Shown one piece after another: positions 17,113-19,388 of a DNA stretch of 61,384 nt. The translations under genes were made by a program, and so were the position numbers. Each line of letters opens with the position of its first letter. Position 1 is the stretch's first letter. A model generated the notes under the pieces. The model did not search any database, was not told the origin of the DNA, and worked only from the letters and a program-made list of their open reading frames with translations. Source of the DNA: a virus; the IMG/VR virus record IMGVR_UViG_3300037961_004286, positions 1 through 61,384 of that record, one strand, 5' to 3'.

Positions 17113-18800
17113 TGTGCGGAATAAATGGTATTACATCTCCTAATCAATTCGATAGAATAGATAAGATGATGGAGTACACTTATAAAAGAGGACCTGATGG
17201 AAAAGACGTTTATAGTAATGATGACGTTACATTTGGTCATAACCTTCTTGCTATATTTTCTGACATAGATAAATCTAAACAACCATATCATTATGAAGAT
17301 AGTGTACTTATCTTTAATGGTGCTATCTATAATTATAAAGAACTTGATGAATGGAATAGTCAATCAGGTACAGATACTGAAGTACTAATAAAAGGTTTAT
17401 ATCATTATGGTATAGATTTTATGAATAGATGTGAAGGTATGTGGGCTTTTGCATTTTATAGAAAAGGTTATACTATTATATGTAGAGATCATTTTGGTAT
17501 AAAACCTCTTTACTACAGACATAATGGTAATGAGTTAGTATTCTCATCTTCTATAAATGCTTTAGAAGTAGAAGATAAAAAACTTGATATGTTTGCTTTT
17601 AGTTTATACAATGCTTTTGGTTATGTTCCTGGATATCTAACTCTACTAAAAGGTTGTTACAAACTATGTCCAGGAGAATACATTACACATACAAAAGATA
17701 GTTTTAGTTCTGGTAATCTTTGGTATAGTAAAAAGTTTAGTATAGGTGAATATAATAAAGAAGAGTTTGTTTCTAAACTAGAACAAGCAGTAAAAAAGAG
17801 CTATGTAGGAATAAGACAGAGAGGTATCTTTTTATCAGGAGGACTTGATTCAACCTCTGTAGCTCATTTTCTTGGTGAAAAAAATACTTTTACTAATAGA
17901 TATACAGCAATAGATGAGCAGGTTAATGATGATGCTAACGTTGCTAAAAAAATGGCAGATGATTATAAATTTAACCATGAAGAGGTTATTATTACTCCTG
18001 AAATATTTTACGATAACATAGACGAATCCTTAGATAGCTTAGAACTTCCTGTGTTTAATAAATCTACTCCTTCTTATTTTTATATGAATAAAATAATGAG
18101 ATCTAAAAATACTATAGTAACTTATTCAGGAGACGGTGGAGACGAAATGTATACAGGTTACTCTGTTCATGGTCAATACGGTAACTATGAAGATCCTATA
18201 GAAGATCACTTTGAAACTATAAGCTGGAAGAAAAAGAAACAATTAAAGTTTACTAATGACAGTCTTTATATGACTAAGCAAAAATATCTATCTTATATGC
18301 ATAACTGGTTTCCTAAAAATGTATTCGGAAATGATCATATCAATAACTGTTTATTTGTTGAAATGATTACTAGAGTATCAGAAGATTTTTTAACTAGAAA
18401 TGATAAGTTTGGTTCTAATTTTGGAATGGAAGGTAGATTTCCTCTACTTAATTTGCCTTTCTATATGTATGTTATGTCTATTCCTTCTAATATTAAGATG
18501 AAAAATTTATCTATAGAAAATTTTAAACCTGGTGAATATAAATTTTTAGCTAGGAACAGTTTAAGTAATATCTTACCTGATTATGTTACTACAAAAAGTA
18601 AGTCTGGATGGTCTATTCCTGATGCTGAATGGAGAAAACAAGAAGATAAATTTATATCTAAAATGACAGATATAATTAAAGAGCCTCTCAATAATAATTT
18701 AGATAGTATTATTGATTGGAACTCTTCTAATGGACCTAAAACTTTTTATGCAGCTGTATTTCTTAAACAATGGTTGAAGAAGCACTCTATCAGCTTATAA
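17112..18800 (+). CDS. asnB: asparagine synthetase (glutamine-hydrolysing) AsnB-like
   Basis: The 562-residue protein begins MCGINGI, exposing the catalytic Cys2 of a class II glutamine amidotransferase after Met removal, with RGPDG and NGAIYNY typical of AsnB. The synthetase domain follows with the PP-loop SGGLDSTS (about 245) and the GDGGDE-type segment SGDGGDEMYTGY. It would make Asn, or amidate another carboxylate, using Gln and ATP. The ATG lies on the divergent late promoter of the GIY-YIG gene, and no Shine-Dalgarno is visible. Confidence 0.9.
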   Translation: MCGINGITSPNQFDRIDKMMEYTYKRGPDGKDVYSNDDVTFGHNLLAIFSDIDKSKQPYHYEDSVLIFNGAIYNYKELDEWNSQSGTDTEVLIKGLYHYGIDFMNRCEGMWAFAFYRKGYTIICRDHFGIKPLYYRHNGNELVFSSSINALEVEDKKLDMFAFSLYNAFGYVPGYLTLLKGCYKLCPGEYITHTKDSFSSGNLWYSKKFSIGEYNKEEFVSKLEQAVKKSYVGIRQRGIFLSGGLDSTSVAHFLGEKNTFTNRYTAIDEQVNDDANVAKKMADDYKFNHEEVIITPEIFYDNIDESLDSLELPVFNKSTPSYFYMNKIMRSKNTIVTYSGDGGDEMYTGYSVHGQYGNYEDPIEDHFETISWKKKKQLKFTNDSLYMTKQKYLSYMHNWFPKNVFGNDHINNCLFVEMITRVSEDFLTRNDKFGSNFGMEGRFPLLNLPFYMYVMSIPSNIKMKNLSIENFKPGEYKFLARNSLSNILPDYVTTKSKSGWSIPDAEWRKQEDKFISKMTDIIKEPLNNNLDSIIDWNSSNGPKTFYAAVFLKQWLKKHSISL

Positions 18801-18821
18801 GAAAAAAATATTACTATACAC

Positions 18822-18829
18822 TATAAATA
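18822..18829 (+). promoter_or_regulatory. late promoter TATAAATA upstream of the tmRNA acceptor segment
   Basis: A perfect TATAAATA lies just before the first base of the predicted tmRNA acceptor piece. Initiation 5 nt downstream would start the RNA at about 18834. Confidence 0.5.
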
Positions 18830-18833
18830 TATT

Positions 18834-18902
18834 ATACAAGGTTTATGATCGTGTATAGAATATACGGGCTGGACGCGGGGGCAGTACCCGCCGCTTCCAC
18901 CA
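18834..18902 (+). ncRNA. ssrA: tmRNA acceptor (3') piece of a circularly permuted ssrA gene
   Basis: The segment ends with a tRNA-like 3' half: T stem GCGGG (18875-18879) pairing with CCCGC (18887-18891) around a 7-nt loop, acceptor strand CGCTTCC (18892-18898), discriminator A and an encoded CCA (18900-18902). The acceptor strand pairs over 7 bp (one G-U) with GGGAGCG at 19105-19111. TTTATGATCGT (18842-18852) pairs with ACGTCATAAA (19127-19136) with one bulge, and ATTATACAA (18831-18839) with TTGTATAAT (19151-19159). The T loop reads GGCAGTA, not the usual TTC-type loop. The order acceptor piece first is that of permuted alphaproteobacterial and some cyanobacterial tmRNAs. The 5' end is approximate. 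Confidence 0.85.
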
Positions 18903-18914
18903 TAAGGACATTGA

Positions 18915-19103
18915 ATGGAGATTATTTGGCATATATTGTTAACCGCTTGTCTAAATTCAGAGTGCAGAACTCAAGATGTACAGTGGTTTGAAAACAAAAA
19001 TACTTGTGAAGCAACTAAAAAGCTTTATGAAGAGATTCCTATAGACGGAAACTGGACAAGTGTTAATTATATATGTAAGCCAAAAGACTCAGTGTCTTTA
19101 TGA
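18915..19103 (+). CDS. small ORF filling the intervening segment of the permuted tmRNA gene
   Basis: The ATG at 18915 follows AAGGA (18904-18908) by 6 nt, and the stop ends one base before the mature 5' end of the tmRNA coding piece (19105). The 62-residue product has a short hydrophobic N terminus and Cys at about 13, 17, 30 and 54, with the DVQWFENKNTC and NYICKPKDS segments. It resembles small Cys-containing proteins I associate with marine phages, possibly exported. Translation would require the uncleaved precursor or a separate transcript. Confidence 0.55.
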   Translation: MEIIWHILLTACLNSECRTQDVQWFENKNTCEATKKLYEEIPIDGNWTSVNYICKPKDSVSL

Positions 19104-19104
19104 T

Positions 19105-19289
19105 GGGAGCGAACTAGGATCGACAGACGTCATAAAAATATGCGTAGATTTTGTATAATAAAAGTAACTGCAAAACGCAAGTCTACTTTTGCTTCAATCC
19201 TTAGCACGAAGAGAGAAGTTACTTCCTCAAGTGCTCAGGCTCTTGCAGCGATTGCCTAATCGAGTTAAGTACGATTAGCGGGGTTTTGG
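19105..19289 (+). ncRNA. ssrA: tmRNA coding (5') piece with tag reading frame
   Basis: The 5' end GGGAGCGAACTAGGATCGAC matches the tmRNA 5' tRNA-like consensus and pairs with the acceptor piece. A resume codon is placed at GCA (19170-19172) after AGTAACT. From there the frame stays open for 29 codons to TAA at 19257-19259 and ends in Ala-Gln-Ala-Leu-Ala-Ala-Ile-Ala, a typical small hydrophobic proteolysis tag. TAATCG and CGATTA (about 19256-19277) form a hairpin that includes the stop codon. A 29-residue tag is long, so the true resume codon could be later in the frame. The 3' end is approximate. Confidence 0.8.
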
Positions 19290-19326
19290 AGGTTTTTCCT
19301 GGCAACAGAAAAAACCTTCTTTTTTT
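19290..19326 (+). terminator. intrinsic terminator of the tmRNA transcript
   Basis: AGGTTTTTCCTG (19290-19301) and CAGAAAAAACCT (19306-19317) form a 12-bp stem with one mismatch, capped by a GCAA tetraloop and followed by a T run to 19326. Confidence 0.9.
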
Positions 19327-19328
19327 GT

Positions 19329-19336
19329 TATAAATA
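19329..19336 (+). promoter_or_regulatory. late promoter TATAAATA before hsp20
   Basis: A perfect TATAAATA lies directly after the tmRNA terminator and 52 nt before the hsp20 ATG. The leader would contain the short palindrome CCGATAATCGG (about 19344-19354). Confidence 0.6.
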
Positions 19337-19388
19337 TATTGACGCCGATAATCGGGTCACTTTAAACTGTCCAATAATGGAGGTATTA

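Follow-up and report, generated by a model that had tools for sequence, protein, structure and literature searches.

Can the intervening segment of a permuted tmRNA precursor carry a protein-coding gene, and, if so, can one transcript serve both as a messenger and as a tmRNA? The question is raised by a locus in the 61,384-nt virus record IMGVR_UViG_3300037961_004286 of IMG/VR, which is referred to here, as the whole stretch of DNA that was analysed, as the window. An initial annotation, made from the letters of the window and its translated reading frames, had noticed an open reading frame (ORF) between the acceptor CCA and the mature 5′ end of a permuted tmRNA, and had proposed that a single transcript could yield both a tmRNA and an mRNA.

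Results

A reading frame fills the intervening segment of a phage permuted tmRNA

The source of the 61-kb record is a marine T4-like phage; its genes include those for T4-type replication proteins, for a UvsX-like recombinase and for a sigma-factor-like protein. The tmRNA site, all features of which lie on the plus strand, is situated between a gene ending at 18800, read as asparagine-synthetase-like (its PHROG match is to a family of unknown function), and an Hsp20 gene at 19377. Two Rfam models match the site above their gathering cut-offs, alpha_tmRNA (RF01849) at 18791–19320 with 88 bits against 50, and tmRNA_permuted (RF04321) at 18841–19259 with 72 bits against 47. As in other alpha-type permuted tmRNAs, the acceptor piece, which is the tRNA-like 3′ portion and ends CCACCA (18841–18902), stands 5′ of the coding, mRNA-like piece, which extends from 19105 to 19320 according to RF01849. 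The two are separated by an intervening segment (IVS) of 202 nt (18903–19104), bounded by the CCA and by the predicted mature 5′ end (GGGAGCGAA), which begins GGGAGCG at 19105. ARAGORN, when run on the window, did not call the tmRNA. The T-arm is uninterrupted in the Rfam alignment, no Rfam intron model matched and the product of the ORF in the IVS has no match among Pfam families, which argues against a group I intron with a LAGLIDADG gene at this site.

The tag reading frame of the coding piece (19170–19259), read from the sequence as AKRKSTFASILSTKREVTSSSAQALAAIA*, is 29 aa in length, twice the usual, and ends LAAIA, not LAA, whereas the nearest relatives of the window tmRNA have ordinary tags of the form ANDN...LAA. 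Tags of 24 aa were seen in three other tmRNAs (L435, L452 and L489). A possible intrinsic terminator, GGAGGTTTTTCC..GAAAAAACCTTC followed by a T run, was identified by eye at 19286–19327; it was absent from the output of a short-loop terminator scan.

The 62-codon ORF, with its Shine-Dalgarno (SD) sequence and four Cys codons, was confirmed at 18915–19103, where it fills the IVS. The CCA end at 18902 is followed by 12 nt (TAAGGACATTGA), which include the SD sequence AAGGA at 18904–18908, and the 13th nucleotide, at 18915, is the first of the ATG; the stop codon TGA (19101–19103) is followed by a single T (19104) and then by the predicted mature 5′ end. The spacing given by the initial annotation, with the ORF starting 13 nt after the CCA and ending a single base short of the mature 5′ end, was therefore right.

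The nested ORF is a genuine phage gene

Protein homologues and purifying selection, the two signs of a real gene that the initial annotation had named, are both present. The product matches hypothetical protein 85 of the Methylophilales phage Melnitz (51% identity over 61 aa, E 1e-16), and its relatives are encoded in 62 viral loci of IMG/VR. Nineteen alignment columns are invariant in 34 sequences, all four Cys residues among them. The nested copies, when pooled, gave a pS of 0.47 and a pN of 0.17 (pN/pS 0.37), as expected of purifying selection, and Ka/Ks between pairs of nested copies was mostly 0.1–0.5. The initial annotation had also held that non-coding sequence of the same length in related phages would speak against a gene; in relatives, IVSs of this length and sequence are coding. 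From the alignment, AlphaFold2 predicted a β-β-α-β domain with a mean pLDDT of 91, and the 62-aa product is accordingly modelled as a small domain of this type. A Foldseek search of the PDB returned no match at E < 0.6, and hence no solved relative, and the matches in BFVD were small uncharacterized phage proteins only. A scan of 84,980 bacterial and archaeal genomes (GTDB) for short peptide patterns, which distant relatives can escape, found no relative. The hydrophobic N-terminus and an LTAC motif resembling a lipobox had raised the possibility of a membrane protein or lipoprotein, which we set aside because AlphaFold2 places a β strand at residues 5–13 within a confident, compact fold.

One could argue that such an ORF is spurious and lies in non-coding RNA, given its short length and the fact that searches of Pfam and PHROG with the 62-aa protein gave nothing usable. 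This explanation is refuted by the homologues, the selection, the fold and the presence of the gene in other genomic contexts, and we give it practically no weight. The ORF is a genuine phage gene.

The 62-aa gene is found inside tmRNAs, beside them and elsewhere

A base-by-base check found the nested layout, consisting of CCACCA, 12–17 nt, the 189-nt ORF, one T and the mature 5′ end, in 17 loci, and wider scans brought the nesting of this gene to 20 distinct tmRNAs. The initial annotation had asked whether the same nesting occurs elsewhere, and it does, with unrelated ORFs as well (see below). Other copies are positioned directly 5′ of a tmRNA (Melnitz, L017 and L032–L037), between tRNA-Thr and tRNA-Leu genes (L018, L023, L025 and others) or among protein genes, and because relatives occur in these other places the protein is not specific to tmRNA. 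Two protein relatives of the window copy, L005 and L006, are not nested, though a tmRNA is present on their contigs, its IVS being short. The nested copies were not grouped into one clade in a tree of 57 columns, which does not support a single origin of nesting; the columns are too few for origins or moves to be counted.

The spacers of tRNA arrays that hold the gene (L018, L023, L025, L028, L039, L044, L054 and L060) often have it 10–20 nt past a CCA end and a few nucleotides before the next tRNA.

The IVS is a general cargo slot in phages

We assembled a set of distinct permuted tmRNAs, 308 viral and 109 bacterial, in which the acceptor pieces were located by acceptor-stem complementarity. 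Long IVSs had been the target of three viral scans, and frequencies were therefore taken from the unaimed scan, in which the viral IVS had a median length of 79 nt and reached 499 nt (111 cases among the matches listed). In the same unaimed sample, a significantly long sense ORF was present in 20 of the 111 cases among the matches listed, as compared with 4 in the antisense direction. The IVSs of the 109 bacterial genes, with a median of 30 nt and a maximum of 116, had no significant ORFs and are too short for such cargo. When all viral IVSs of at least 90 nt were considered, the longest sense ORF was significant (p ≤ 0.05 against dinucleotide shuffles) in 125/240, and the longest antisense ORF in 28/240. 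The IVS ORFs (p ≤ 0.1, at least 25 aa) fell into 41 BLASTP clusters, some singletons of which will be chance; clustering used only the residues encoded within the IVS and excluded the shared translated 5′ end of the tmRNA (DGGELGSTG). The pN/pS was 0.14–0.6 in most clusters with informative pairs. Many marine phages place dozens of unrelated small genes in the IVS slot.

One possible explanation for this diversity is that a discarded, constitutively transcribed spacer tolerates inserts and that small genes settle there by chance, in which case the overlaps between gene and RNA described below would come only from tight packing, without regulation. The occurrence of some 40 unrelated ORF clusters in one slot is what would be expected if this were so, as is the finding of the 62-aa gene between tRNA genes or elsewhere. 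The evidence on the other side comes from the hairpin at the IVS ends.

About 32 of 124 cargo ORFs run on into the mature tmRNA and end at +13 to +42 (e.g., L361, L399 and Melnitz L001). Where the frame reads into the mature tmRNA, processing would remove the stop codon and could make the ORF a target of the very same tmRNA.

An IVS of 499 nt (L104) has a 120-aa ORF that by eye is like an ordinary gene of the window at 725–1213, and because of this resemblance an unrelated, larger gene may also have entered the slot.

The promoter arrangement points to one transcript

A T4-type late promoter box (TATAAATA) is located at 18822–18829, 81 nt before the CCA end. In our survey of viral permuted tmRNAs, this box was present within 140 nt 5′ of the CCA end in 184 of 305 cases, as compared with 10 of 1016 control windows, and its position was nearly always 66–85 nt before the CCA end; among the 20 nested tmRNAs it is inexact in 6. 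Melnitz also has the box just before its acceptor piece. With the box upstream and a sigma-factor-like protein encoded in the window, the tmRNA has the features of a T4-type late transcription unit. No separate late box was found between the acceptor piece and the ORF, where the 12-nt gap between CCA and ATG is too small to hold one. We also rejected a promoter of the ORF's own, since sigma-70-like matches were no more frequent than chance and the one late box in the vicinity on the upstream side precedes the acceptor piece. With a late box 5′ of the acceptor piece and none before the ORF, the single transcript proposed in the initial annotation is supported, and, judging from the promoter anatomy, it appears to be both ribosome-rescue RNA and messenger.

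A second TATAAATA lies at 19329, just past the tmRNA and 5′ of the Hsp20 gene.

The two ends of the IVS form a conserved hairpin

The initial annotation did not mention a hairpin at the IVS ends, the pairing of SD with anti-SD, or the general use of the IVS as a cargo slot. The IVS is closed by base pairing between its first and its last nucleotides, and a 4-nt tail is left opposite the discriminator and CCA; this tail is UGAU in 222 of 299 IVSs from viruses and in 30 of 100 from bacteria. In the window, stem analysis and covariation identified the 5′ arm (TAAGGACATTGA) at 18903–18914, where it contains the SD sequence, and the 3′ arm (TCAGTGTCTTTA) at 19089–19100, where it corresponds to the codons S-V-S-L and holds the anti-SD sequence TCTTT. 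The UGAU junction motif occupies 19101–19104 and its UGA is the stop codon of the ORF, which on this reading of the sequence is borrowed from a conserved element of the RNA.

The terminal stem is 10–13 bp in length. A strong terminal stem was observed in 92% of viral IVSs of at least 40 nt, as compared with 6% of shuffled ones, and in 76% of bacterial IVSs. Over 263 viral IVSs, base pairs 2–10 were paired in 83–95% with many pair types, whereas 41–81% would be expected from column composition. When the acceptor and IVS stems of the nested family were examined together, 97.1% of cells were paired and the covariation score was 0.218, as against 0.090 in shuffled alignments (0/500). Three of the covarying pairs are in the acceptor stem and two are in the IVS stem, the latter in partly coding sequence. 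In the acceptor stem, helix 1 is 100% paired and three pairs have changed on both sides, including the U-A that the window has for C-G. The changes in the IVS stem of this family are few, and some are common to related copies; in L012, a C-G pair has become U-A through changes on both sides that are synonymous in the ORF (GTG to GTA).

The hairpin is also present in IVSs that have no ORF, and in bacteria. It is probably older than the cargo, and its first role is presumably in tmRNA processing; the overlap with the SD sequence could be incidental.

The nested gene fits the hairpin at both ends

In the nested family, the 5′ arm (TAAGGACATT) includes the SD sequence, and UCUUU in the 3′ arm pairs with it. 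The predicted probability that the SD is unpaired was 0.00 in all nested copies except L007, in which the SD arm is weakened. The 3′ arm of the nested copies consists of the last codons of the ORF, S-[V/M]-S-L, and this C-terminus was found in 18 of 18 nested copies, whereas the copies outside the IVS end STST, SRGT, SIAS and the like; the one SVSL among the latter (L058) adjoins a tmRNA. Nesting is, therefore, accompanied by a C-terminus in keeping with the needs of the RNA, a relationship that speaks against chance settlement in a permissive spacer. The same is true of the strong enrichment of an SD-like motif at IVS nucleotides 2–9, which was present in 46/124 ORF-bearing IVSs and in 2/57 short ones (p 4e-7, an optimistic value because related loci are not independent). 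Where cargo ORFs do have an SD-like motif, it lies outside the lower stem in more than half, which is again in keeping with insertion without regulation. Class A cargo ORFs, 42 of 124, have the SD inside the stem, with a median probability of 0.00 of being unpaired, and class B cargo ORFs, 49 of 124, have it at the stem apex, where it is partly accessible (median 0.30). The accessible apex SD of class B indicates that hiding of the SD is not required of the slot. With the points on both sides taken into account, we regard chance settlement in a tolerant spacer as rather unlikely.

Discussion

We propose that the two halves of the permuted tmRNA precursor are connected by a hairpin whose apical loop carries the ORF as protein-coding cargo, and that a single transcript from the T4-type late promoter would comprise the acceptor piece, the ORF and the coding piece, as the promoter anatomy implies. 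Because the SD sequence is transcribed approximately 180 nt before its pairing partner, a ribosome could start on the message while it is still being made and produce the 62-aa protein. Ribosomes would use the interval in which the SD is exposed, and termination would free the 3′ arm; once this arm exists and translation has ended, the hairpin and the acceptor stem would close and the SD would be hidden. RNase P cleavage at the mature 5′ end, together with 3′ trimming to the CCA, would then release the two-piece tmRNA. The location of the SD inside the processing hairpin suggests that use as mRNA and use as tmRNA are sequential, and not the either/or choice made by processing that the initial annotation had put forward. 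We consider it probable that a cargo gene in the hairpin loop is read in this order, with co-transcriptional translation first, followed by hairpin closure, processing and maturation of the tmRNA.

A broader interpretation is that marine T4-like phages have permuted tmRNA genes that are designed for two functions, the hairpin serving as a translational switch and the proteins as interchangeable cassettes. The ribosome-binding site would then be formed by the 5′ arm and the reading frame would finish in the 3′ arm, in a transcript that is mRNA first and tmRNA after. We put this forward tentatively, as a serious possibility that falls somewhat short of being probable.

One could envision two other scenarios for the source or fate of the protein. 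In one, it is made mainly from the excised IVS, which RNase P and 3′ processing would free as a 202-nt mini-mRNA protected by its paired ends. With a single nucleotide between the end of the stop codon and the RNase P site, the excised IVS would still have the complete ORF with its stop, and the IVS ends do form a stem of the length given above. However, the SD stays paired in the predicted fold of the nested copies, and the cargo ORFs that end at +13 to +42 would lose their stop on excision; we consider this scenario improbable. In the other, ribosomes would stall on cleaved IVS RNA whose end coincides with the stop codon or precedes it, and the tmRNA from the same transcript would tag and destroy the product. 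The closeness of the stop codon to the cleavage point, a distance of 1 nt in the window, and the frames that pass this point in some cargo families might favour such a self-targeting loop, which is nonetheless very unlikely, as the conserved residues and the pN/pS below 1 in most families imply that a stable product is wanted. Returning to translation before closure, the cargo ORFs that run 13–42 nt into the mature tmRNA lie outside the logic of a stop just before the cleavage site.

What was believed to be a discarded spacer is a gene slot of many phages, with some 40 kinds of small protein. The locus offers a concrete case of one RNA that may act first as messenger and then as structural RNA, and it provides a switch open to testing, in which a single helix could govern translation as well as RNA maturation. 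With the cargo comes a new group of small phage proteins, whose expression probably falls in the late phase; the cargo may also be a reason for phages to keep a permuted tmRNA of their own. Annotation programs commonly drop a CDS that overlaps a tmRNA call, and genes in IVSs are for this reason likely to be missed; in the phage Melnitz, which is cultured on Methylophilales H5P1, the 142-nt IVS holds a different small ORF (MFKWLSK...) that is indeed unannotated in its record.

The release of an mRNA and a tRNA from one precursor has a parallel in the tyrU-tufB co-transcript of E. coli, in which the mRNA lies beside the tRNA and not, as here, between two halves of one RNA molecule. The permuted tmRNAs of Alphaproteobacteria (RF01849/RF04321) share with the window the order of acceptor piece, CCA, IVS and tag-bearing coding piece, as well as the hairpin at the IVS ends, and differ in their short IVSs without significant ORFs, the IVS of the window being almost wholly coding. 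Group I introns in tmRNA genes are known to carry homing endonuclease genes (PMC11915505), which are likewise protein genes within a removed part of a tmRNA precursor. In that system, the insertion is in the T-loop, the intron is self-splicing and the protein is of the LAGLIDADG type, whereas the window has a permuted IVS with neither intron nor endonuclease. The same 2025 paper on the tmRNA database reports, besides one repetitive element, a single case of a tRNA gene within a permuted IVS (PMC11915505). This tRNA-Ala is another gene in an IVS, but it is an RNA gene, single and nominally archaeal, and the genes described here encode proteins and are recurrent in phages. We found no mention of protein genes in permuted IVSs in PMC11915505 or in the open papers that were searched, and an earlier mention may exist elsewhere.

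Another system similar to that of the window is Melnitz (PMC9004378), a T4-like marine phage with an alpha-type permuted tmRNA and a homologue of the 62-aa gene (gene 85), which is situated directly 5′ of the tmRNA and outside it. The word "intervening" does not occur in the main text of PMC9004378. Permuted tmRNA-like sequences, each unannotated and with an IVS of roughly 90 nt, were also observed in Erythrobacter phage vB_EliS-L02 (L544, OL955261.1) and in Mesorhizobium phage Cp1R7A-A1 (L545, MT188704.1).
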